From positions 1-64,000 of the forward strand of contig VFZL01000019.1 in NCBI GenBank assembly GCA_016871175.1: a stretch of DNA of 64,000 bases, read 5' to 3'. The position numbers were made by a program, and so were the translations under genes. The notes below the pieces were generated by a model. It saw only the letters and a list, made by a program, of their open reading frames with translations. It was not told where the DNA came from and did not search any database. Below, in pieces: positions 49,720 through 64,000 of this stretch (position 1 is its first letter; each line of letters begins with the position of its first letter). The DNA comes from Acidimicrobiia bacterium. Its GTDB lineage: Bacteria; Acidobacteriota; Vicinamibacteria; Vicinamibacterales; CAVVIG01.

Positions 49720-49969
49720 ATTGAACAGTGTTCGGCCAGCTAACGTCGTTAGACGACCGATGGATGATGTGGGATCCCGCAGGGCGGCCGAAGGACGCGC
49801 GGCGCGACTTCATGGATCCGTAGATCCGCAGCGCAACGAGATCCCCTTTTTAGACGGATTGGCGCTTGATTGGTTCTCCGTAGCCCGCGTTTCCGGTTCG
49901 GGAGTCCGGTCACGCGAGACTGCGGTGCGGGTCCAACAACTCCGAGGGCCCATCCGCGTGGGAGGCACA

Positions 49970-52900
49970 GTGAGAGGAGTCAGCACCCGGCGCGTTGCAC
50001 GCGTCGCCGTCCGCCTGGTCGCCTTTGTGTGGCTGATCGCATCAGCTTCACCGGCGGCCGCACAGCAAGCCAGCGGTATCGCCGGCGTGGTCCGCGATAG
50101 CGCGGGGCTTCCGATGCCCGGCGTTACCGTCGAAGCGGCCAGTCCAGCCCTCATCGAAAAAGTCCGGTCGGCCACAACGGACGGCGAAGGCCGCTACAAC
50201 ATCGTCGACCTTCGTGCCGGCGTGTACTCGATTACGTTTTCGCTCGTCGGCTTCTCAACCGTGAAGCGTGATGGCGTGGATATCGGCGCCGGGTTCACGG
50301 CCACGGTGAATGTGGCGATGCAGGTCGGGGCGCTCGAGGAAACGATCACCGTCAGCGGCGCGGCCCCCCTCGTCGACACGCAGACGATGCGGCGGCAAGA
50401 GGTGCTCAACCAGCGCGAGCTCGAATCGCTGCCGAGCGGGAATATCGGCCTCCAGACGCTGGCGTACATGACGCCGGGCTTTGCGACCACGCAAGCCGAC
50501 GTCGGGGTCGGTCGCGACACATGGTCGGCGCAGGGCGCCTATACCCTCTATCACGGCAAGGACGGCACGCGCGCGTCGTTCGACGGCTTCCGCAATCAGT
50601 ACTTCATCGGCACCGCGAGCGGCCCAGGCTACATCACCGATCAGGGCGTGATCGCCGAGATGCAGCTCGAGACGAGCGGCATGGGCGCCGAGTCGGGCTC
50701 GGGCAGCATCAGCGTCAACGTCATCCCGAAGGCCGGCGGCAACACGTTCGCGGGCGGCCTCGACGGCTTCTTCTCCAATCGGGCCATGTCCGCGACCAAC
50801 ATCGGGCCGAACTTGAACGAGTGGACAACCGATCCGGCGCTCCTGCGTGCAGCCGGAATCAACGCTGCGGGTCGCGTCCAGCGAATCTATCGCTTGGGGG
50901 GACAGCTCGGTGGGCCGATCATGCAGGACAAGATCTGGTTCTTCGGCGCCGTCGGCCGCTGGGGCTCCCGCGTGAATCAGCCCAACGCATTCTTCAACAC
51001 GCTCCAGGGTGCGGCTAACGTTCCCGGGCGGCCCGCGTCTGCGCAATTCGGCCCTTCGTTGGGGCCGACGCCCACGCTCTTCTATCCCGGTCAGCCAGGC
51101 ACTCCGTTCCAGGATCTCGCGCCGAGCGCGAATGGCGCCAAGCCGGCGGCGAGCTTTGACTGGTTCCGCAACCACTCTCTGCGGATGACGTACAACCTGA
51201 ATCAGAAGAACCGCTTCACGTTCTTTGGCGACATCCAGAAGTCGTGCCGCTGCACGACCGGTCCGTTCACGGGCGCCAATGCGATCGAGTCCGAGCGCGG
51301 GTGGGACTGGTGGCCGTCTGGCGTGGCGCAGGGCACGTGGACCGCACCGATCACGAGCAAGCTCCTGTTGGACGCCGGGGTCTCGTGGCAGGTGGCCAAC
51401 TGGGTCAACTTCGCCGAGCCGGGCGTGACGCGCGATGATCGTTCTATCCTCGAGCTGGCCACCGGGTACCGGTATGGCGCGACGACGCTCCTGACCGCAC
51501 CGATCGCGAGGACCGGCCGTAGTGCGCAGCGCTTCTCGGTGTCGTACGTCACCGGCAACCACAACTTCAAAGGCGGCGTGACGCTCGAGCAGGCGTTCAA
51601 CGATGAGTCCGCCGACCGCAACAACCAGGTGGACGGTCTGAACTACGACTTCCTGAACGGACGTCCGTCACTCATCCATTACTACGCGCTCCCGCAGTTC
51701 CAGCAGGACCGGATGAACGCCGAGCTGGGGCTGTTTGCGCAGGACAACTGGAAGATCAAACGCTTGACACTCAACCTCGGCGTACGATTCGACTGGGTCA
51801 CGATGGGCTTCCCCGATGCCTCCCTGTCCGCCGGACCGTGGGTGCCCGAGCGAACCGTGAGGAAGCTCAGTGGCGTGCCGGATTGGAAGGACATCAACCC
51901 GCGATTCGGCTTTGCGTACGACGTGTTCGGGAATGGTCGGACGGCGGCGAAGTTCTCCGTGGGTCGCTACCTCGAGTTGAGCCGCAGCGACATGACCCGG
52001 CGCTTCCATCCGTTCACGTCGTCGGTGCGGGCTGCGTCGCGTTCGTGGAACGACGCGAACAACAACTTCATTCCGGACTGCAAGCTCGATGACTTCACGG
52101 CCCAGGACCACCGCGTCACCGGTGGCGACCAATGCGGGGCGATCTCGAACGTCAACTTCGGGCGGTTCATCCCGACGGCCACGCAGTATTCGGACGCGGT
52201 GCTGCAAGACAATCGGAACTTCCTCTGGGACATCAACACCGAGCTGGTCCACGAGATCCTCACGGGGCTGTCGATGAGCTTCGTGTACAACCGCAACTGG
52301 GACGGGAACTTCACCGTGACCGACAACCTCGCGTTGACGCCTGGAAGCTTCGACGAGTTCTGCGTCAACATTCCGAACGATCCCCGGTTGCCGAACTCGG
52401 GTCAGCGGACGTGCGGGTACTACGACGTGAAGCCAGAGTTCTTCGCTCAGGGCGTCAACCGCGTGATCAATACCAAGGAGTTGCCGGGCGACGTGAAGCC
52501 GCAGCGGTATTGGGACGGCTTCACGCTCACGCTGAACGGCCGGCTGCCCAAGCAGATCACGCTGGGCGGCGGCCTCGACTTCGGACGTCAGGTGCGCGAC
52601 AACTGCTTCACCGTCGACATCCCGAACACGCCGCGTGACATCGGAGGGCTCTTCAGCACGGCGGCGGGCGTGGCGGGCGCGAGTGCCGGCGGACCGTTCT
52701 GCCGCTCGGTGACAGCGTTCAAGGACACCATGGACATCCGGATCCGCGGCAGCGTGCCGATCAAGGGCGGGTTCAACGCGAGCTTCATCTTCCGCAACAC
52801 CGCCGGCGCGGTGTGGAACGGGACTTGGAACGTGAACAATGCCGACCTCACGGCCGGTCGCGTACAGTTCCTGAACGGCCGTACCAGTTTCGCCGGCAAT

Positions 52901-53158
52901 CAGCCGCAAGCAGTCGCGCTGCACGCGGTGAACCAGTACTACGGACCGCGGTTCAGTCAGTTGGATCTCGCCGTCAACAAGTTCTTCGACACCAGCGTCG
53001 GTCGCCTGCGTCTGGCGCTCGACCTGTACAACGCGCTCAACGCGAACTCGATTCAGGGGGTCACGACGACCTACGCGATCGCCCAGAACCGATGGTTGCG
53101 TCCGACCTTGTTCATGGATGCGCGGCTCGCCCGCGTCACCGCGAGTCTCGCGTTCTAG
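49970..53158 (+). CDS. TonB-dependent receptor with carboxypeptidase-regulatory-like N-domain
   Basis: About 1062 aa. I chose the GTG at 49970 (GGGAGG six nt before), which yields a signal ending PAAAQQ; the frame is open back to 49721 but those residues are not signal-like. Residues about 35-115 are the carboxypeptidase-regulatory-like domain (GIAGVVRDSAGLPMPGVTVEA). A plug domain follows (LPSGNIGLQTLAYMTPGF, GSGSISVNVIPKAGGN). The barrel continues to the terminal strand VTASLAF, ending in F. This is the acidobacterial Oar-type layout, without a recognisable TonB box. Substrate is unknown. A small exported protein lies 18 nt downstream. Confidence 0.93.
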   Translation: MRGVSTRRVARVAVRLVAFVWLIASASPAAAQQASGIAGVVRDSAGLPMPGVTVEAASPALIEKVRSATTDGEGRYNIVDLRAGVYSITFSLVGFSTVKRDGVDIGAGFTATVNVAMQVGALEETITVSGAAPLVDTQTMRRQEVLNQRELESLPSGNIGLQTLAYMTPGFATTQADVGVGRDTWSAQGAYTLYHGKDGTRASFDGFRNQYFIGTASGPGYITDQGVIAEMQLETSGMGAESGSGSISVNVIPKAGGNTFAGGLDGFFSNRAMSATNIGPNLNEWTTDPALLRAAGINAAGRVQRIYRLGGQLGGPIMQDKIWFFGAVGRWGSRVNQPNAFFNTLQGAANVPGRPASAQFGPSLGPTPTLFYPGQPGTPFQDLAPSANGAKPAASFDWFRNHSLRMTYNLNQKNRFTFFGDIQKSCRCTTGPFTGANAIESERGWDWWPSGVAQGTWTAPITSKLLLDAGVSWQVANWVNFAEPGVTRDDRSILELATGYRYGATTLLTAPIARTGRSAQRFSVSYVTGNHNFKGGVTLEQAFNDESADRNNQVDGLNYDFLNGRPSLIHYYALPQFQQDRMNAELGLFAQDNWKIKRLTLNLGVRFDWVTMGFPDASLSAGPWVPERTVRKLSGVPDWKDINPRFGFAYDVFGNGRTAAKFSVGRYLELSRSDMTRRFHPFTSSVRAASRSWNDANNNFIPDCKLDDFTAQDHRVTGGDQCGAISNVNFGRFIPTATQYSDAVLQDNRNFLWDINTELVHEILTGLSMSFVYNRNWDGNFTVTDNLALTPGSFDEFCVNIPNDPRLPNSGQRTCGYYDVKPEFFAQGVNRVINTKELPGDVKPQRYWDGFTLTLNGRLPKQITLGGGLDFGRQVRDNCFTVDIPNTPRDIGGLFSTAAGVAGASAGGPFCRSVTAFKDTMDIRIRGSVPIKGGFNASFIFRNTAGAVWNGTWNVNNADLTAGRVQFLNGRTSFAGNQPQAVALHAVNQYYGPRFSQLDLAVNKFFDTSVGRLRLALDLYNALNANSIQGVTTTYAIAQNRWLRPTLFMDARLARVTASLAF

Positions 53159-53176
53159 GTGTTGCGGAGGATGTGT

Positions 53177-53539
53177 ATGAAACGGGTTGTTGCGCTGGCC
53201 CTCGCGCTGTCGCTGGGGCGCACATCGTTCGCGTTGGCCGGGGAGTCGCTGCTGCAGGTGGGCACGCGACACGTCGAGCAGTTGGTGCGCGCGGAGCCGA
53301 CGTCGAGCTCGGCTCCGGCGAGCTCGATGCCGGCGATCACATCCATCGCCAAGACAGGGCAGCCGAGGGCCGCGGCTCAGCAAGCCGGGCCCAAGACGCT
53401 GCAAACCAGCGGCCTGCGCAGGAGGACCAAGATGCTGATCGCCCTCGGCATCGCGGCCGGGCTCGTGGGAGGCACCTTCGCCATCGATGGCGGCGTCGAG
53501 AACAACACGCCGTCCACGCTCGGCACGCGGCGCGACTAG
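53177..53539 (+). CDS. Small exported protein with one C-terminal helix
   Basis: 120 aa. The ATG at 53177 has GGAGG six nt upstream. N-terminal signal (VVALALALSLGRTSFALAGE), a Ser/Ala-rich middle, then a hydrophobic helix (MLIALGIAAGLVGGTFAID) near residue 84-104 and a short polar tail. I do not recognise a family. It follows the TonB-dependent receptor by 18 nt and could be co-transcribed with it; a role as an accessory or assembly factor is guesswork. Confidence 0.68.
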   Translation: MKRVVALALALSLGRTSFALAGESLLQVGTRHVEQLVRAEPTSSSAPASSMPAITSIAKTGQPRAAAQQAGPKTLQTSGLRRRTKMLIALGIAAGLVGGTFAIDGGVENNTPSTLGTRRD

Positions 53540-53670: not shown

Positions 53671-56439
53671 GTGGGTCGCTCCGTAGCGTTAGGGGTAGGG
53701 TACGTGTTGCTCGTGCTCAGCTCCATCTGGCTGTGGGGCTTTCCGGGTGCGACGCTGGCGTACTACCTCAACGTCGGCCTGCATCCCCTCCTCGGACTAA
53801 CGGTCTTGGTGCTGGGCTGGCGATCTCTCCGGAGGCTCTGGCTTCCGAGCGGCCTTGGCGGCTATGTCGTCGGTGCGCACGGTTCTGCAGTGATTCTAGG
53901 CGCCGCGATCCTCTTCGTCGGCGCCACCACACGCTACCGCCTTCTGGTCGTTTCTCATGCCATCGCCGGCGCGGTGGCCGTGTTCCTGCTCGCCCTGCTC
54001 TTGCTTCGGGCGCAGCCTGGCCCGCGGCTCCGCTGGGCCGTGTCGGCCCTGTTGACGCTTGCGATCATCGGGAGCGGGGCAGGCCTCCTGGCGCGTGCGG
54101 GTCATGAAGACCGTCGACGCGAGGCCTACCGCATCGAGAATCCGCCCGTACCGCCCGCGACGATGGAGCAGGAAGGGCGTGGTCCTTCCAGTCCGTTCTT
54201 CCCATCCTCCGCGAATACCAACGTACGCGGGATCATTCCCGCGAACTTCTTCATGACGAGCGAGATGTGCGGCCGGTGTCACAAGGACATCTACGACCAG
54301 TGGAACTCATCGGCGCACCACTTCTCGTCGTTCAACAACCAGTGGTACCGCAAGTCGATCGAGTACATGCAGGACGTCGCCGGCACGCGGCCTTCGAAGT
54401 GGTGCGCTGGCTGCCACGATCACGCCGTCTTCTTCAACGGACGCTTCGACACGCCGATCAAGGACCAGATCAACACGCCCGAAGCGCAGGCTGGCCTTGG
54501 ATGCACGTCGTGCCACTCCATCTCGAAGGTCGGCAGCACGATGGGTCAGGGAGACTTCGAGGTCGAGTATCCGCCGCTCCACGATCTGGCGGCGAGCGAG
54601 CAGCCCATCCTTCAGAGGGCGCACGATCTCCTGACGTACCTCGCGCCTGGTCCGCACCGCGATACGTTCTTGAAGCCGTTCCACCGCGAGCAGACCGCGG
54701 AGTTCTGTTCCGCGTGTCACAAGGTGCATCTGGACGTTCCGGTGAACAACTACCGCTGGTTTCGTGGCTTCAACGACTACGACAACTGGCAGGCATCGGG
54801 CGTGTCCGGAGAAGGGGCGCGATCGTTCTACTACCCGTCCACGCCGGCGCACTGCGGCACGTGTCACATGCCGTTGGTGGCGTCGAACGATCCCGCCGCC
54901 AAGCAGGGCATGGTCAAATCACATCGGTTCGCCGCGGCGAACACGGCGCTGCCGACTGCCAACAGAGACGACGTTCAGTTGAAGGCGGTGCAGGATTTTC
55001 TGATGGACGGTCAGATCTCGGTGGACGTGTTCGGTGTCACGCGTACGACGGCATTGGCCCCGAGCACGGATGCGGTGCCTGTGCCGCAGGAGCCGACGCT
55101 CTCGAGCACGTTCGCCGTTGGCGAAGAGTCGGGGCAGTTTGGCGGCGGCGGGCGCCGGGCGAGCGGACCAGTGGCCGAGGTGCTCGCCCCTCTCGATCGT
55201 GTGCCGGTGACGGTGCGCCGCGGTGAATCGGTGCTGGTCGAGGTTGTCGTGCGGACGCGGAAGGTCGGGCACTTCTTCCCCGGCGGTACGGTGGACGCCT
55301 TCGACGTCTGGGTGGAATTCGAGGCGGTCGACGATCGCGGTCGCGTGCTTCGGCACAGTGGCGCGGCCGCTGGGAACCACGGGAACGGACCCGTGGACCC
55401 GAGCGCCCACCTGTACCGGAGCTTGCAGCTCGATGGGCGCGGGAACCCGATCAACAAGAGGAATGCGTGGATGACACGGTCTGTCGCGTACGTGCGGCTC
55501 ATCCCGCCCGGGGCGGCGGACACGGTCCACTATCGGCTCGACATTCCGAACGATGCCGGCGACACGATCACGCTTCGCGCGAAGGTGAACTACCGTAAGT
55601 TCGCATGGTGGAACACGCAGTGGTCGTATGCCGGCGTGCCGGACACACGGGAAGGTCACGCGGGGGTCACCAAGTCGTTCGACGATCGTCACTGGTCCTT
55701 CACCGGCGACACGTCGACTGTCTCTGGGACGGTGAAGAGCATCCCCAACCTCCCGATTACGACGATGGCGCAGGCGGAGGCAGCGCTCACCGTGGTTGGC
55801 CCGGACGCGCCACTGCCCGAGGTCACGCCGCTGCTCGATCCGTCGGTCCGCGAGCGTTGGAACGACTACGGCATCGGTCTGTTACTGCAGGGTGACCTGT
55901 CGGGGGCTGAAGCCGCGTTCCGTCGTGTCATGGCCATGGATCCGGCGTACGCAGACGGTCCCGTGAATGTCGCGCGCGTGCTCGTTCAGGAAGGCGACAC
56001 GCAGGCGGCCATCCCGCTGCTCGAGCAGGCGCTGACGCTTTCGCCCGGCCTGGCGAAAGCGCACTATTTCATGGGGCTTGCGCTCAAGGCGGACGGTCGG
56101 TACGACGAGGCGCTCACCCATCTCGAGGCGGCGGCCGCAGCGTATCCTCGCGATCGGGTCGTCCTCGGACAGATCGGACGCGTGCAGTTCCTCCAGCGAC
56201 GGTATCCAGAGGCCGTTGCCGCGTTCGACCGCGCGCTGCGTGTCGATCCGGAGGATCTCTTCGCGCACTACAACTTGATGTTAGCGTACCAAGGCATGGG
56301 CAAGACGGAGCTGGCCGAGCGCGAGCGCGCGCTATACGAGCGGTTCAAAGCGGACGAGGCCGCACAGACAATCACCGGGCCGTTCCGCTTGCGATCGCCC
56401 CAGGACAACAACGAGCGGCAGTCGATCCATGTGCACTGA
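53671..56439 (+). CDS. Membrane-anchored pentahaem cytochrome c with C-terminal TPR domain
   Basis: 922 aa, GTG start. Residues about 1-145 contain four to five membrane helices. The periplasmic part then has five CxxCH motifs: CGRCH (199), CAGCH (245), CTSCH (278), CSACH (346), CGTCH (394), resembling cytochrome c-554/nitrite-reductase type multihaem folds. Residues about 450-690 look like a beta-rich domain (VRRGESVLVEVVVRT). Residues about 725-890 are TPR repeats, ending with a short tail. The fusion of a quinol-oxidase-like anchor, multihaem domain and TPRs suggests an electron-transfer hub; the partner is unknown. The stop overlaps the CRTAC1 gene that follows. Confidence 0.9.
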   Translation: MGRSVALGVGYVLLVLSSIWLWGFPGATLAYYLNVGLHPLLGLTVLVLGWRSLRRLWLPSGLGGYVVGAHGSAVILGAAILFVGATTRYRLLVVSHAIAGAVAVFLLALLLLRAQPGPRLRWAVSALLTLAIIGSGAGLLARAGHEDRRREAYRIENPPVPPATMEQEGRGPSSPFFPSSANTNVRGIIPANFFMTSEMCGRCHKDIYDQWNSSAHHFSSFNNQWYRKSIEYMQDVAGTRPSKWCAGCHDHAVFFNGRFDTPIKDQINTPEAQAGLGCTSCHSISKVGSTMGQGDFEVEYPPLHDLAASEQPILQRAHDLLTYLAPGPHRDTFLKPFHREQTAEFCSACHKVHLDVPVNNYRWFRGFNDYDNWQASGVSGEGARSFYYPSTPAHCGTCHMPLVASNDPAAKQGMVKSHRFAAANTALPTANRDDVQLKAVQDFLMDGQISVDVFGVTRTTALAPSTDAVPVPQEPTLSSTFAVGEESGQFGGGGRRASGPVAEVLAPLDRVPVTVRRGESVLVEVVVRTRKVGHFFPGGTVDAFDVWVEFEAVDDRGRVLRHSGAAAGNHGNGPVDPSAHLYRSLQLDGRGNPINKRNAWMTRSVAYVRLIPPGAADTVHYRLDIPNDAGDTITLRAKVNYRKFAWWNTQWSYAGVPDTREGHAGVTKSFDDRHWSFTGDTSTVSGTVKSIPNLPITTMAQAEAALTVVGPDAPLPEVTPLLDPSVRERWNDYGIGLLLQGDLSGAEAAFRRVMAMDPAYADGPVNVARVLVQEGDTQAAIPLLEQALTLSPGLAKAHYFMGLALKADGRYDEALTHLEAAAAAYPRDRVVLGQIGRVQFLQRRYPEAVAAFDRALRVDPEDLFAHYNLMLAYQGMGKTELAERERALYERFKADEAAQTITGPFRLRSPQDNNERQSIHVH

Positions 56440-58198
56440 CCACTCGCACCGCGCGATGCGCGTGCGGCCCGCGAGGCCGACACGGGTGCTCGCGCGGCGT
56501 CCCGGGATGGGGGCGGCGCTGGTGTTGCTGCTGCTGGCGCCACTCCTTGGTTCCGCGTGGGTGCCGGCGTGGGTATCTGCAGCGCCCGGAGCTGCGGGAC
56601 CAACCTTCATCGACATCACGGCGCAGGCCGGCGTGCGCTTCACGCACGTGAACGGCGCGTTTGGCAAGAAGTACCTCCCCGAAACCCTCGGGTCCGGCGT
56701 CGTTGTCTTCGACGCGGACGGCGACGGGCGGCAGGATCTCCTCTTCGTCAACGGGACACCGTGGCCCGGACGGCCGGGGGCCGCGTCGCTGCCAGCGTTC
56801 TATCGCAACACCGGCGGGGCGTTCGTCGACGCAACACGCGGATCGGGTCTCGACGTCGAGCTCTACGGCATGGGCGCCGCCGCGGCGGATGTCGACAACG
56901 ACGGACGCACGGACGTCTACGTCACCGCGCTCGGAGGCAATCGCTTGTTCAAGGGCCTCGGTGGAGGCAAGTTCGCCGACGTGACCGCGAAGGCTGGCGT
57001 CGCCGACGGCGGGTTCTCGACGGGCGCTCTCTTCTTCGACTACGACAAGGACGGTCGTCTGGACCTCTTCGTTGCCCACTACGTCGAGTGGACGGAGAAG
57101 ACCGATCTGCACTGCACGCTCGACGGCAAGTCGAAGTCATATTGCACGCCCGAGTCGTACACGGGCCAGAGTGGAACGCTGTTTCGCAATCGCGGCGACG
57201 GTACGTTCGAGAACGTCACACGTCAGGCGGGCCTATCGGATCCGTCCGCGAAGGCGCTGGGCGTCGCGATGCTGGACTATGATGCCGACGGCTGGATGGA
57301 TCTCTTCGTCTCGAACGACACACAGCCCAATCGCTTGTACCGCAACAAACACGACGGCACCTTCACCGACGTGGCAGTGTCCGCAGGCGTGGCGTTCAGC
57401 GAGGCTGGCGTGGCGCGAGCCGGCATGGGTGTCGACGCCGCGGACTACGACGGCTCAGGTCGACCGAGCCTCATCATCGGCAATTTCTCGAACGAGATGA
57501 TGGCCGTGTACCATAACGAAGGCAAAGGGCTCTTCATCGACGACGCCCCGCGATCCGCGATTGGGCGGTCGACGCTGCTGACACTGACGTTTGGATGCTT
57601 CTTCTTCGACTACGACCTCGACGGGCGAGCGGACATTTTCGCTGTGAACGGCCACGTGGCTGATGACATCGAGAAGGTGCAGTCGCGTGTGACGTACAAG
57701 CAGCGCCCGCACCTCTTCCGCAACGGAGGACAGGGGAAGTTCGAAGAGGTGGCTGCGGCCGCGGGAGCTGCGCTGTCCACACCCATGGTGGCGCGCGGCA
57801 CCGCGTACGGCGACCTCGACGGCGACGGCGATCTCGACGTCGTCATCACCACCAACGGTGGCGCTGCGCGGGTCCTGCGCAACGACAGCGACCGTGCGCA
57901 AGGCGTACTGCGGGTCCGCACCACGGGGGTAGAATCGAACCGCGACGGAATTGGGGCGCACGTGCAGATCACCGTCGGCGGCCAGAGGCGCTGGCAGATC
58001 GTGAAGACCGGGTCGAGCTACCTTTCGCAGAGCGAGTTACCCCTCACGTTCGGCTTGGGCACGGCGGCGGTGGTCGATGAGGTCCGTGTGACGTGGCCCA
58101 GCGGGCGAGTGGACGTCGCGACGAAAGTGCCTGCGAACCGGCAAATCACGATCCGCGAGGGGAGTGGCGTGGTCGAGTCAAGGTCGATGACGCGATGA
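56429..58198 (+). CDS. CRTAC1-family protein (FG-GAP propeller, ASPIC/UnbV domain)
   Basis: 589 aa, predicted secreted. The start at 56429 overlaps the cytochrome stop by 11 nt; an ATG at 56459 is an alternative. After the signal (LVLLLLAPLLGSAWVPAWVS), PTFIDITAQAGVRFTHVNGA begins a seven-bladed FG-GAP propeller with repeated Ca-binding loops such as DADGDGRQDLL, DVDNDGRTDVY and DYDKDGRLDLF. The C-terminal ASPIC/UnbV domain begins RVRTTGVESNRDGIGAHVQI and ends VTWPSGRVDVATKVPANR. In cyanobacteria and others these proteins are extracellular with undefined activity. Its stop is overlapped by the next gene's start (ATGA). Confidence 0.9.
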   Translation: MCTDHSHRAMRVRPARPTRVLARRPGMGAALVLLLLAPLLGSAWVPAWVSAAPGAAGPTFIDITAQAGVRFTHVNGAFGKKYLPETLGSGVVVFDADGDGRQDLLFVNGTPWPGRPGAASLPAFYRNTGGAFVDATRGSGLDVELYGMGAAAADVDNDGRTDVYVTALGGNRLFKGLGGGKFADVTAKAGVADGGFSTGALFFDYDKDGRLDLFVAHYVEWTEKTDLHCTLDGKSKSYCTPESYTGQSGTLFRNRGDGTFENVTRQAGLSDPSAKALGVAMLDYDADGWMDLFVSNDTQPNRLYRNKHDGTFTDVAVSAGVAFSEAGVARAGMGVDAADYDGSGRPSLIIGNFSNEMMAVYHNEGKGLFIDDAPRSAIGRSTLLTLTFGCFFFDYDLDGRADIFAVNGHVADDIEKVQSRVTYKQRPHLFRNGGQGKFEEVAAAAGAALSTPMVARGTAYGDLDGDGDLDVVITTNGGAARVLRNDSDRAQGVLRVRTTGVESNRDGIGAHVQITVGGQRRWQIVKTGSSYLSQSELPLTFGLGTAAVVDEVRVTWPSGRVDVATKVPANRQITIREGSGVVESRSMTR

Positions 58199-61100
58199 GG
58201 ACGACGGGAGTCCGCTGGCTGACGGCGTGCGCGATCGCGGTGATCGTCGGTTGTTCGCAGGCACCGTCGCAGCCGCCATCCCAACCGACTCCCAGCGACG
58301 CACGAGAGCGGGCGTATCGAGCGAACAACGTCGGCGTCGCCCTCCTCGAGCAGCTGAAGTTTCCCGAGGCGGCCGCAGCGTTTCGCGACGCGCTGGGCAT
58401 CGAGCCGTCGCTCGGCATCGCCCAGTTCAACCTGAGCCTCGCCCTTTTCTACGCCCAAGACTTCGACGGCGCCCAGAAGGCGTCGGAGGATGCGGCGAGA
58501 CTGCTGCCGCAGGCACCGCAGCCGCCGTACGTGCTTGGGCTGATCGCCCGCGCGCAGGGGCGGACCGACGCCGCACGCGCACAGTTCGACCGCGTACGGC
58601 AGATGGATCCGCGTGATGTCGGTGTCAACATCAACATGGCGCAGATTGCGCTCGAGGATCAGCGCTACGCGGATGCGATCGCTGCACTGAGGCCGGTCGT
58701 GGCGGAGGAGTCGTCGAATGTCACGGCGGCGTACGTGCTCGGCCTGGCGCTGACGCGGTCCGGGGATCTCGACGAGGGACAGCGTCTGCTGGCGCGGTCG
58801 CAGGCGCTCCGCAACAGCGGCTACGCCATGACACTCGGCCCGGGGTACTCGGAGCAGGGGCGCTACGCGGAAGGGATCGCCTCGACCGGTGTCGAGCCGG
58901 ACCTCGTCGAGCCGGTGTCGTCACAGGTCGCCTTTGCCGCGACGCCGCTCGGGCCGCGCGGATGGGTGGGTGGCGCACGTGGTCTCGATCCGAGCCTGGC
59001 GTTGCTCGACTTCGATGCCGACGGCGATCTCGATGCGCTCGTCGTCGAGCACGCGAGCGCGCGACTACTCCGTAACGACGGTGACGCCTGGACCGACGCG
59101 ACGGCAGGCAGCTCGCTCGATCGCGATCTGGGCGGGGCCGCGGTCGTGGGTGTGGTCGCAGCGGACTACGACAACGATGGGGCCGCCGACCTGCTGCTCC
59201 TGCGTCCGGGGCGTTCGAGCCTGTTCAGGAATGACGGAAGAGGGCACTTCACCGACGTCACCGGCCGTGCCAGCCTGCCTTCGTTTCCCTATGTGCCTGG
59301 CGCGGGCGCATTCGCGGACGTGGATCACGACGGCGATCTCGACATCCTGATCGCTGGCGTGACGTCGGTGGATGCCGCGCGGACGGTCTCGGCCGGCGTG
59401 CGGTCCCCGTCGGTGGACGCGACTCCGGCGCCCGTACAACTCCTCCGGAACAACCGAGACGGCACGTTCACCGACATCACGCGCGCATCTCACATCGATC
59501 GCTCCGGCCACGGCGTGGCCATCGTGCCCACGGACTATGACAACCGACGCGATGTGGATCTCTTGCTCGTCTCTCGGCACTCGGCTCCGGCCCTGTTCGC
59601 CAACCAGCGGGATGGCAGTTTTCGGGATGTCGCCGGGAGCACCGGGCTTGACGCGGCGCTCACCGGCGGTGCCGAAGTCGCGGCGGCCAGCAGTGGCGAT
59701 GTGAACAAGGATGACGCGCCAGACTTCGTGTTCGCGACGAGTCGCGGCCTGGTGGCGGCCGTCAGCGACGGGCGCGGTCGCTTTAGCCGTCAAGTGATCG
59801 GAGAGGGTGCCGAGGCGCTCCACGCCGTTCAGCTCACCGACTACGACAACGACGGTCTTCTCGACGCGGTCGCATGGGGCGCCGATGGTCCGCGCCTCTG
59901 GCGGAATGAAGGGCGAACCTGGCGCGACGTCACCGAGTCGGTGTTCGCCGCGCGCCTGAGCGCCGAGGCGACGACGCTTCGGTCGGCGAGCGCCTGGTCA
60001 GTTGCCGACGTGAATCGGGACGGTTGGCCAGACCTGGTGACCGTCGGCTCGGATGGACTGTGGCTCTGGCGCAACAGCGGGGATCGCAATCGCCGATCGC
60101 TGCGGGTCGAGCTCAGCGGGCTGGTCAGCAACAAGCCTGGTATCGGGTCCAAGGTGCAAGTGCGGGCGGGGAGCCTGAGCAGCCGCATCGAGGTGGCCGC
60201 GACGTCACCCGCCGTCACGCCCGCCGACATCGTGTTCGGCCTCGGTCGCCGCCCTGGCGGTGACGTCGTGCGCGTGCTGTGGCCATCGGGGATTCTTCAA
60301 GCCGAGGTCGCGGAGCCGCCGGCCGGATCCGTGGCAGTCCTGTCATCGCCGTTTCGCGTCGCAGAGCTCGATCGCAAACCGTCGTCGTGTCCGTTCCTCT
60401 TCGTGTGGAACGGTGAGCGATTCGAGTTCGTCACGGATTTTCTGGGCGCCGGAGAGATGGGGGCCTGGCAGGCGCCCGGGGTGCGCAACCGCCCGGACCC
60501 GGTGGAATACGTGCGCATCCGAGGCGACCAGCTGCGGCCGCGCAACGGGCGCTTCGAGCTGCGCGTCACCAACGAGCTCGAGGAGACACTGTTCCTCGAC
60601 GAGCTGCAGCTGGTGGCCGTCGCGCACCCCGAGCCGCTCTCGATTTTTCCCAACGAGGGGATGACCGATCCACCGAAGCCCCACCGTATGCATGCCGTTG
60701 ACCGCCTGCGTCCGCCAAACCGTGTCACGGACGAACACGATCACGATGTCACGGAACGAGTGCACACGCTCGACTGGACGGCGCCAGACGATTTTACCTT
60801 GCGCCCGATTCGTGGCTACGCAGCGCCCCACTCGTTGACGATCGACGTCGGGCCCGAGCGCGATCCGATGCTCGTGCTCACGGGCTGGACCGACTACGCA
60901 TTCTCCAGCGACAACGTCGCGGCGCACCAGGCGGGTCTCACCTCCGAGCCGCCGGTGCTCGAGGCGCGGACGCCCGACGGGAAGTGGCGTCCGCTCGCGG
61001 TTTCGGTTGGCTTCCCGGTTGGCCGCCCGCAATCCATCGCCGTGCCGCTGGCCGGCGTGCTTCGGCCCGGAGAACGTCACATCCGTCTGTCGACGAACAT

Positions 61101-61677
61101 GCGCGTCTACTGGGATCAGATCCTGGTGGGCAGCGCTGCGAACGCGAAGGTTCTGGAGACGACGACGCTGACGCCGGCAGCCGCGCGGCTCAGCGCCCGG
61201 GGCTTTTCTGCCGAGGTGCGACCGCACGCGAATCGTCCACCGGTCTACGATCACAGCCGCGTGGCCCTGACGTCACCCTGGAAGGCGATGGCTGGCGCGT
61301 TCACACGCGAGGGTGATGTCGAGCCTCTGCTGGCCGAGAGTGACGATCGCTTCGTGATCGCTCGATCCGGTGACGAGATCGCGGTCGCGTTCGACGCGGA
61401 CGCGTTGCCTCCCCTCCCGGCCGGGTGGACGCGCACGTTCCTATTGCGCGCAGACGGTTTCAGCAAGGAGATGGACATCAACTCGGCGAGTCCGGACGCG
61501 GTGCAGCCGCTGCCGTTCCATCGGATGTCCGGCTATCCGTATCCCTCGCACGAGCACTACCCGGACACGGTTGCGCATGAGGATTACAGAAGACGCTTCA
61601 ACACGCGGCAAGTGGTGAAGCCCTGGCTGCCGCTGCACGCCTCCACGCAGACGATGGAGCGCCCGAGGCCTGACTGA
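58195..61677 (+). CDS. Giant TPR - FG-GAP - ASPIC lipoprotein
   Basis: 1160 aa from an ATG at 58195 that overlaps the CRTAC1 stop. Lipoprotein signal ends VIVGC with Cys20. Residues about 40-230 are TPR repeats (NNVGVALLEQLKFPEAAAAF, IAQFNLSLALFYAQDFDGAQ). About 250-640 are FG-GAP loops (DFDADGDLDALV, DYDNDGAADLLLL), then an ASPIC-like segment (NKPGIGSKVQVRAG). A C-terminal domain of about 400 residues (CPFLFVWNGERFEFVTDFLG to the end) contains ASPIC-like and beta-rich sequences not seen in the smaller CRTAC1 protein. It ends PYPSHEHYPDTVAHEDYR. The gene forms a translationally coupled trio with the pentahaem cytochrome and the CRTAC1 protein. Confidence 0.9.
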   Translation: MRTTGVRWLTACAIAVIVGCSQAPSQPPSQPTPSDARERAYRANNVGVALLEQLKFPEAAAAFRDALGIEPSLGIAQFNLSLALFYAQDFDGAQKASEDAARLLPQAPQPPYVLGLIARAQGRTDAARAQFDRVRQMDPRDVGVNINMAQIALEDQRYADAIAALRPVVAEESSNVTAAYVLGLALTRSGDLDEGQRLLARSQALRNSGYAMTLGPGYSEQGRYAEGIASTGVEPDLVEPVSSQVAFAATPLGPRGWVGGARGLDPSLALLDFDADGDLDALVVEHASARLLRNDGDAWTDATAGSSLDRDLGGAAVVGVVAADYDNDGAADLLLLRPGRSSLFRNDGRGHFTDVTGRASLPSFPYVPGAGAFADVDHDGDLDILIAGVTSVDAARTVSAGVRSPSVDATPAPVQLLRNNRDGTFTDITRASHIDRSGHGVAIVPTDYDNRRDVDLLLVSRHSAPALFANQRDGSFRDVAGSTGLDAALTGGAEVAAASSGDVNKDDAPDFVFATSRGLVAAVSDGRGRFSRQVIGEGAEALHAVQLTDYDNDGLLDAVAWGADGPRLWRNEGRTWRDVTESVFAARLSAEATTLRSASAWSVADVNRDGWPDLVTVGSDGLWLWRNSGDRNRRSLRVELSGLVSNKPGIGSKVQVRAGSLSSRIEVAATSPAVTPADIVFGLGRRPGGDVVRVLWPSGILQAEVAEPPAGSVAVLSSPFRVAELDRKPSSCPFLFVWNGERFEFVTDFLGAGEMGAWQAPGVRNRPDPVEYVRIRGDQLRPRNGRFELRVTNELEETLFLDELQLVAVAHPEPLSIFPNEGMTDPPKPHRMHAVDRLRPPNRVTDEHDHDVTERVHTLDWTAPDDFTLRPIRGYAAPHSLTIDVGPERDPMLVLTGWTDYAFSSDNVAAHQAGLTSEPPVLEARTPDGKWRPLAVSVGFPVGRPQSIAVPLAGVLRPGERHIRLSTNMRVYWDQILVGSAANAKVLETTTLTPAAARLSARGFSAEVRPHANRPPVYDHSRVALTSPWKAMAGAFTREGDVEPLLAESDDRFVIARSGDEIAVAFDADALPPLPAGWTRTFLLRADGFSKEMDINSASPDAVQPLPFHRMSGYPYPSHEHYPDTVAHEDYRRRFNTRQVVKPWLPLHASTQTMERPRPD

Positions 61678-61739
61678 CATCAAGCCGAGCGCCGCCGCGG
61701 GTCTAGCCCAGTCGAGAGCTCGTGCTCGGACACGGTCCC

Positions 61740-62019
61740 ATCCGAATAGCAGCAGTCGGCCGACTGGCACCTGACCGAACGTCTGCGTCTGGCCCAGGCT
61801 GACCCGCGGGTCCCAGCTCGAGACGACGAGGTCCACGTGTCCATCCCCGTCGAAGTCGTCGCCGATGGCGCCACCGGAATTGCTCAGGGCATCCAGTCCC
61901 AGTGTGGGTGCGATGTTCGCGAACCGCGAGAACGGTTCGTCCGGCTCGAAGGCCGCCGGTGGAATGAGAGAGGCGCGCCTCGAGGGCTCTTGGTGGGCGT
62001 GCACGTTGTTGCGCCCCGT
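61740..62019 (-). pseudogene. Fragment of a CRTAC1-family gene
   Basis: On the minus strand a short frame reads SLIPPAAFEPDEPFSRFANI and SGGAIGDDFDGDGHVDLVVS followed by SWDPRVSLGQ, matching the beginning of the FG-GAP propeller of a TPR-type CRTAC1 protein. No start or signal is found upstream (the sequence before 62019 is non-coding), and the homology ends after about 75 residues. It is opposite to, and about 60 nt from, the end of the giant TPR gene. A relic of a duplicated CRTAC1 gene. Confidence 0.7.
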
Positions 62020-62069: not shown

Positions 62070-62675
62070 ATGACATTAGCGGGATCTCTGGTGGCTGCAG
62101 TCGGGCTCTGCGTCGGCGCATGCACAGCTCCTCCTGCCGCGGATGCACCACCATCGTCCGCGTCGGCGCCTGCTGAGGCGGCACCCACGACAGCCTGGTT
62201 CGTCGAGCGCGCGACGGAATCCGGACTCGTGTTCACCCATGTCAACGGCGCATCCGGGAAGTACTTCTACCCGGAGATCCTGCCGCTTGGTGTGGCGCTC
62301 CTCGACTTCGACGCGGACGATGATCTCGACGTCTTCGTTGTCCAAGGGCACACACTCGGAGGGACGCGTGCGCAGGGGGATGCCGCCAGCGGTGGGCAGC
62401 TCTTCCGGAACGATTTACACGTGGCGGCCGATGGTCGTCGTACGCTTCGCTTCACGAACGTGACGGCGGCGAGCGGGCTCGTCGCCACCGGGTACGGCAT
62501 GGGCGCGGCGACGGGTGACATCGACAACGACGGTGACGTCGATCTCTACGTGATGAACTTCGGTCCCAATCAGATGTTCCGCAACAACGGGAACGGCACC
62601 TTTACCGACGTCACGAAGGAGAGCGGGACGGCGAACCAGCCGGGCTTCGCGGTGTCAGCGGCATTCCTCGACTAG
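62070..62675 (+). pseudogene. Truncated CRTAC1-family lipoprotein gene
   Basis: 201 aa with a lipoprotein signal (VGAC, Cys18) and a good CRTAC1 start (FVERATESGLVFTHVNGASG, then ALLDFDADDDLDVFVVQG and IDNDGDVDLYVMNFG). It stops at TAG in FAVSAAFLD, where relatives continue DYDxDG into four more blades and the ASPIC domain, about 370 residues in all. The DNA after the stop does not resume the homology in any frame. It may be a remnant or, less likely, a short secreted FG-GAP protein. It is oriented away from the fragment at 61740-62019. Confidence 0.75.
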
Positions 62676-62834: not shown

Positions 62835-64000
62835 ATGAGGCGTATCGGGTTGAGGCGAGCGGTGGGAATGGCGGCTGCCGTCCCCGCGCTCTTGGTGGCG
62901 CTGGCCGCGGCGGTGCAGGCAGGTCAGCAGCCTGCGTCGAGCGGTGAGGTCACGTTTACCAAGGACATCGCGCCGATTCTGCAGCGCAGCTGCCAGAAGT
63001 GCCATCGGCAGGACGGCGTTGCGCCGATGTCGCTCGTGACGTACGAGGAAGTCCGTCCCTGGGCGCGTTCGATCAAGGCCCGTACCGGCGTTGGACCGCG
63101 CGCGGGCGTCATGCCGCCGTGGTACGTCGAGAAGAACATCGGCATCCAGAAGTTCAAGAACGACCCCTCGCTCAGCGATGAGGAGATCGCGAAGATCGCC
63201 AAGTGGGCCGACAGCGGCGCGCCACGTGGCAACCCGGCGGACCTCCCGGCGCCCAAGGTGTGGGATGACTCCGGCAAGTGGGCCATCGGCACGCCAGATC
63301 TCATCGTCAAGACCACCGACGTCGTCGTGAAGGCGAACAACCCCGACTGGTGGGGCGAGATTCCGCGCGTCAAGATCCCGCTCGACGAGGACCGCTACGT
63401 CACCGCCGTCGAGGTGAAGGAAGTCAACGACGTCCCATCGGCAGGGAACGGTCGAGCGACCGTCGGTGGTCGCTACGTGTTCCATCACATGATCTGGGCC
63501 ACGCGGCAGCTCGGCGAAGGTGAACAAGGCACCGACGCCGCGTTCGACGATGGCAGCACGGGGTGGCCGGTGCACGAGGTGGGGCGCGAGGCAGACTTCT
63601 TCGATCTGGATTCGGCGCGACTGCTGAGGGCCAACTCCTCGATCATCTCCGACTCGGTACACCTGCACTCGAACGGCCGCGATACCAAGGCGCACCTCGA
63701 GATCGGGTTCAAGTTCGCGCCGAAAGGGTTCCAGCCGAAGTACAAGCGCTCGCTGATCGCGCTCGGCAACGGCGTAGACATCGACATCCGCGCGATGGAA
63801 AAGGAACAGCAGCTGCACGCCTATGCCGTGGTCAACGAGCCGACGAAGATTTTGTCGTTCGAGCCGCACCTGCACGCACCCGGGATGCGCATGTGCCTCG
63901 AGCTCATCTGGGGCTACAACATCCAGACGCTGAACTGCGTGGGATACGACCACAACTGGGTGCGGGGCTACAACTACGACGACGACCACGCGCCGCTCAT
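62835..64000 (+). CDS. Cytochrome c / copper type II monooxygenase-like protein, 3' end outside window
   Basis: 388 codons seen, no stop before the edge. GGAGGG lies about eight nt before the ATG. Signal sequence (AAVPALLVALAAAVQAG) then a cytochrome c segment with CQKCH at 53-57 (TFTKDIAPILQRSCQKCHRQ). The second half has His-rich motifs of peptidylglycine-type copper monooxygenases: YVFHHMIW, HLHSNGRD and FEPHLHAPGMRMCLELIWG, then VGYDHNWVRGYNY. The layout matches haem-copper domains of planctomycete/acidobacterial PSCyt-type proteins. The reaction is not known. The frame of 402 aa on the opposite strand (62781-63989) is a shadow. Confidence 0.85.
   Translation, partial: MRRIGLRRAVGMAAAVPALLVALAAAVQAGQQPASSGEVTFTKDIAPILQRSCQKCHRQDGVAPMSLVTYEEVRPWARSIKARTGVGPRAGVMPPWYVEKNIGIQKFKNDPSLSDEEIAKIAKWADSGAPRGNPADLPAPKVWDDSGKWAIGTPDLIVKTTDVVVKANNPDWWGEIPRVKIPLDEDRYVTAVEVKEVNDVPSAGNGRATVGGRYVFHHMIWATRQLGEGEQGTDAAFDDGSTGWPVHEVGREADFFDLDSARLLRANSSIISDSVHLHSNGRDTKAHLEIGFKFAPKGFQPKYKRSLIALGNGVDIDIRAMEKEQQLHAYAVVNEPTKILSFEPHLHAPGMRMCLELIWGYNIQTLNCVGYDHNWVRGYNYDDDHAPL

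Follow-up and report, generated by a model that had tools for sequence, protein, structure and literature searches.

CbcL, a b/c cytochrome of the Geobacter inner membrane, is a quinone oxidoreductase with nine c haems in its N-terminal part and a C-terminal, HydC/FdnI-like domain of six helices and two b haems (PMC9129911). In ImcH, homologues of which have been reported in Acidobacteria (PMC6295460), three N-terminal transmembrane (TM) helices precede seven CxxCH motifs. The pentahaem cytochrome c552 of Thermochromatium tepidum (5ze8) is a chain of 435 residues that lacks both TPR and a membrane domain of five helices, and for which no CRTAC1 partner is named. Proteins of the CRTAC1 family, such as the murine one (9etn), combine an FG-GAP propeller carrying calcium loops with an ASPIC domain; in the literature searched we found no function assigned to a bacterial CRTAC1. 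Finally, CRTAC1 genes were reported between genes for hydrazine synthase (HZS) alpha-like and betagamma-like proteins, some with c554 domains (PMC12758564).

The window, i.e. the whole stretch of 64,000 nucleotides analysed here (C19:1-64000), comes from a genome of 4.44 Mb in 85 contigs; relatives that carry these genes are listed under Acidobacteriota/Vicinamibacteria. It contains three consecutive genes on the forward strand: CYT (53671-56439, GTG start, 922 aa), for a predicted fused membrane b-type/pentahaem c/beta-domain/TPR protein, CRT (56429-58198, ATG start, 589 aa), for its dedicated partner, an exported FG-GAP propeller of the CRTAC1 family with a UnbV_ASPIC domain, and TPRFG (58195-61677, ATG start, 1160 aa), an accessory gene for a putative lipoprotein with TPRs, a CRTAC1-type propeller and ASPIC. 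Both overlaps described in the first-pass annotation were found again, one of 11 nt between the CYT stop and the CRT start (56429-56439) and an ATGA shared by CRT and TPRFG (58195-58198). The CRT start codon, on which the length of the 11-nt overlap depends, is likely correct but not beyond doubt, and an alternative ATG at 56456 would instead leave a 16-nt gap after CYT. The nearest relative (L058) likewise offers a CRT ATG at -11, and 22 other loci have a candidate CRT start with a 1- or 4-nt overlap with the stop codon of the cytochrome gene. The fixed stoichiometry that had been derived from this coupling was abandoned, as start/stop overlap does not imply it.

CYT resembles CbcL in that a membrane domain, predicted to be of the b type, and a periplasmic multihaem c domain are joined in a single chain. 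However, it has five N-terminal helices, one predicted b haem, five c haems, a beta domain, a TPR and a CRTAC1 partner, and the features by which CbcL, MtoC and MtrH are recognised (HydC/FdnI-like di-haem b domain, six C-terminal helices, nine c haems) are not those of CYT. With ImcH it shares N-terminal TM helices followed by c haems, but its five TM helices, five CxxCH motifs and TPR set it outside that family.

In the AlphaFold2 model of CYT (single chain, pLDDT 83.8) the five TM helices are followed by the haem region, the beta domain and the TPR. The protein had been annotated as a membrane-anchored pentahaem TPR cytochrome; its five CxxCH motifs and TPRs stood, while the "anchor" proved to be a five-helix domain (residues 2-152, 53674-54126) with two invariant histidines. 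His38 (53782-53784), Gly42 and His96 (53956-53958) are the only membrane-domain residues kept in 49/49 sequences, and in most sampled members this domain is 21-32% identical to that of the window's CYT. A Pfam search of the domain gave nothing consistent and no Pfam family, and yielded no sequence match to known b-type cytochromes; Ni_hydr_CYTB (HydC/FdnI type) did not match the membrane domains of 18 members. Each of the two histidines, which are the predicted b-haem ligands, lies nine residues into its helix (helices 2 and 4), and in the model these helices run in the same direction. Because the haem domain must be periplasmic, both helices should run from out to in, placing each histidine about nine residues from the periplasmic end. 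The simplest reading of this geometry, taken from predicted helix positions, would be one b haem held between His38 and His96 near the periplasmic face, in which case CYT would be a b/c-fused quinol dehydrogenase rather than merely an anchored cytochrome.

The five-haem c554-type region (54244-55035; CxxCH at residues 200, 245, 278, 346 and 395) matches Cytochrome_C554 (PF13435) with 30.7 bits against a cut-off of 20.8. Five conserved histidines outside the CxxCH motifs (His216, 304, 329, 353 and 418) are candidate distal ligands and could serve the five c haems. Between haems and TPR lies a conserved beta domain (55189-55800) with an invariant GHFFPGG-T-D-W pattern (Arg528, His534, Asp542, Trp547). 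The C-terminal TPR superhelix (residues 724-908, 55840-56394), the proposed docking site, is followed by a conserved tail, NNERQ-IHEH (56407-56436), in which His920 is kept in 47/49 and His922 in 48/49 sequences. The best non-TPR fold match of the ectodomain was the pentahaem c552 5ze8 (E 1.6e-6, TM 0.61 by target), which aligns with CYT over the c554-type start of the haem region and the beta domain after it; further matches were MamA/CTPR-like TPRs. The VIA-align lists for CYT consist mostly of TPR chains and barely cover the haem and beta domains. For the cytochrome, the earlier description of the locus as extracytoplasmic and redox-active is well founded.

The annotation of CRT as a calcium-loop propeller with an ASPIC/UnbV domain was upheld by Pfam matches to FG-GAP_3 (E 1.7e-47, 8 stretches) and UnbV_ASPIC (57947-58150; 71.3 bits, cut-off 23.4), and CRT matches murine CRTAC1 (9etn) with E 3.9e-33. 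TPRFG is a natural TPR–CRTAC1 fusion, in which TPRs (residues 33-206) precede a CRTAC1-type propeller with ASPIC (242-726) and a beta-rich C-terminal region (about 730-1140). Its TPR and FG-GAP_3 were recognised by Pfam and its CRTAC1 fold by structure comparison with 9etn (Z 36.1, rmsd 2.6, 444 residues), which bears out the propeller, while its UnbV_ASPIC match is weak, with 20.3 bits by hmmscan (cut-off 23.4) and 25.3 by genome search. The lipobox (IVGC) behind its designation as a lipoprotein is present, but TPRFG homologues do not keep it, and it was rejected as a feature of the system. Neither CRT nor TPRFG contains CxxCH. Compared with murine CRTAC1, the bacterial clade is tied to a multihaem cytochrome, and TPRFG adds TPRs and the beta-rich region.

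It had been proposed that the three genes form one system, with loss of gene order in relatives named beforehand as a possible refutation. The order was kept: among 80 GTDB loci, 65 have at least 1.5 kb of downstream sequence and are testable for CRT, and at 58 of these, across the phylum, a same-strand CRT comes no more than 1 kb after CYT. Among the relatives, almost all cytochromes whose contig extends far enough have CRT next. With ten ASPIC genes per 4.4 Mb, the estimated chance of one lying within 1 kb on a given strand is well under 1%. TPRFG accompanies the pair in 24/51 loci (20 downstream, 4 upstream) and is often absent; at L072 and L133 CRT is missing and TPRFG adjoins CYT. On these frequencies the invariant unit is the cytochrome with CRTAC1, whereas TPRFG is accessory. 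The proposal of one system therefore holds for the first two genes, on gene order, the CRT clade described below and the repeated overlaps, and is weaker for the third. Clustering of all neighbouring ORFs revealed no other neighbour conserved phylum-wide; a regulator pair and a 104-aa gene are additions confined to the gp2 clade.

Full-length orthologues of the cytochrome were found in roughly 22/60 relatives and about 43/396 phylum genomes, so the module is patchy. Matches at E 1e-10 extend to 123/396 phylum genomes and, beyond the full-length ones, mostly comprise the haem region only. The order CRT-CYT-CRT was seen in gp2/Acidiferrum-type genomes (L100, L102-L104, L106-L109, L112, L113, L116, L125, L127). 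Often a 104-aa gene is interposed and a response regulator of the LuxR type precedes the set; the first of the two CRTs starts with a twin-arginine-like signal (MNRRDF, MKRRDF). The pair was also found in MAGs recorded as Acidimicrobiia and Phycisphaerae (L090, L121), which may reflect mis-binning or transfer. An apparent CYT-CRT fusion ORF of 1544 aa (L083), at first sight Rosetta-stone evidence, was discarded as an assembly artefact, because a run of 52 N within CYT throws the reading out of frame.

A tree of 109 CRTs contains one clade of 84 rows (SH-aLRT 99), of which 79 are cytochrome neighbours; its fine placements are unsure, as a quick method was used and some branches are long. Among the other five, that of L141 lies further downstream of a CYT paralogue and that of L123 close by on the opposite strand. 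Most non-neighbour CRTs of the same genomes fall outside the clade, which includes partners of CYT paralogues only 30-55% identical and is marked by about 38 specific positions, such as K81, W112, W221, K236, F391 and Q418. At about 14 of 20 loci with distant cytochrome paralogues, a CRT lies close by in the same orientation. Some paralogues are shorter and lack the TM domain and some have four haems; the four-haem group, of about 700 aa, has no detected C-terminal TPR of the CYT type and still adjoins a CRT. Neither the TM domain nor the TPR is thus strictly needed for the pairing. In five paralogues (L147, L148, L151-L153) an N-terminal signal replaces the TM domain while five haems and TPR are present; no CRTAC1 neighbour was detected for them.

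In an independent sample, a TPR gene adjoined 10/39 ASPIC genes on the same strand, against 5/103 control genes (Fisher p 0.0009), an enrichment that is significant but modest, with a small control. At C49 a CRT gene is overlapped by the gene of a TPR protein with haem, and at C19 by a TPR gene. This adjacency, together with the natural fusion in TPRFG, makes TPR–propeller docking a likely assembly principle and suggests that the TPR may be what CRTAC1 binds, while the redox head varies. Contig C49 (L056/L057) carries six UnbV_ASPIC genes in 26 kb, several of them beside TPR genes, and one CRTAC1 partner there is a haem-TPR protein (L057:1303-3768).

Upstream of the trio, all on the forward strand, lie a TonB-dependent/Oar-like outer-membrane protein (49721-53158, start uncertain), found at this place only in two close relatives, and a short gene for an exported protein (53174-53539), retained in just two close relatives. 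Downstream, a truncated CRTAC1 of 201 aa (62070-62675, forward strand), probably a decayed copy, is closest (44-55%) to the CRTAC1s of L032:17465, C49 and L040 and not to the cytochrome-linked clade. A short FG-GAP-like frame on the reverse strand (61704-62004), without a match among the ORFs of the compared loci, is apparently a remnant of another propeller gene. At 62835-64000 (forward strand), running past the window end, a protein predicted to be exported contains a CxxCH haem motif and gave weak cytochrome matches only in Pfam; it also has His-rich stretches, which resemble copper monooxygenases. Genes of this type occur near the trio in a few relatives (L033, L036, L072, L077).

Based on our observations, we suggest, with a probability of about 0.5, that these genes specify a module for periplasmic electron transfer linked to quinone. 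We infer a complex in which the five-helix domain of CYT would hold one b haem (His38 of helix 2, His96 of helix 4), exchange electrons with the quinone pool and pass them to the ectodomain with its five c haems, while the C-terminal TPR superhelix would dock the co-translated CRT propeller. CRT, having no haem of its own, would be a dedicated substrate- or acceptor-binding or docking subunit, and TPRFG, with TPR and propeller in one chain, may extend or sometimes replace it. A bolder and distinctly more tentative version would see in CYT a membrane b/c quinone oxidoreductase of a new family, whose TPR platform binds dedicated CRTAC1 propellers, CRTAC1-TPR being a general plug-in in Acidobacteriota with the propeller as specificity element and a swapped redox head (pentahaem, monohaem with a further domain, or none).

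The same genes might instead encode a catalytic periplasmic redox enzyme, hydrazine-synthase-like, with the active site formed by multihaem cytochrome and propeller and a small nitrogen or other substrate. The association of CRTAC1 genes with multihaem or c554-containing proteins in HZS-like clusters speaks for it, as do the c554-type haems of CYT. However, the number of conserved histidines fits five bis-His haems, as expected for electron transfer and leaving no open site, CRT and TPRFG lack haem motifs, and no HZS alpha, betagamma or other HZS-like gene was recognised among the conserved neighbours by ORF clustering; we consider such an enzyme unlikely. Extracellular electron transfer, with CYT as an inner-membrane quinol dehydrogenase of the CbcL/ImcH kind that delivers electrons to an outer-membrane conduit or a metal oxide, and with CRT and TPRFG as surface adhesins, appears similarly improbable: the b/c-fusion architecture does recall CbcL (PMC9129911), but no porin-cytochrome conduit was seen among the conserved neighbours, the TM domain is unrelated by Pfam to the HydC/FdnI type, and the loci come from many soil lineages. 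One of their sources (G029) is, we assume, an aerobic isolate, which we also count against it.

It is also conceivable that exported surface or nutrient-binding proteins with separate jobs are merely co-localised and linked by co-expression. Acidobacteriota are indeed rich in CRTAC1 and TPR proteins, with as many as 39 ASPIC matches in a single genome, and a TonB-type receptor lies nearby. Nevertheless, the conserved order, the clade-specific pairing and the start/stop overlaps exceed what co-expression needs, so we doubt this explanation and favour the quinone-linked module.

The first-pass annotation did not recognise the trio as a described system, and our literature search, which covered few subscription journals, agrees: it returned no account of the CYT–CRT pair, and on CRTAC1/ASPIC with cytochromes, or on Acidobacterial multihaem-TPR proteins, PMC12758564 alone was directly relevant. 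A conserved two-gene module with a frequent third gene is real and apparently undescribed. The deep, dedicated pairing of CRT with a multihaem cytochrome offers a testable handle on the role of the CRTAC1 propeller. Our results suggest that a respiratory or redox machine not described so far operates outside the cytoplasm of many Acidobacteria, and the module points to a respiratory branch, as yet uncharacterised, within a phylum that is among the commonest in soil.
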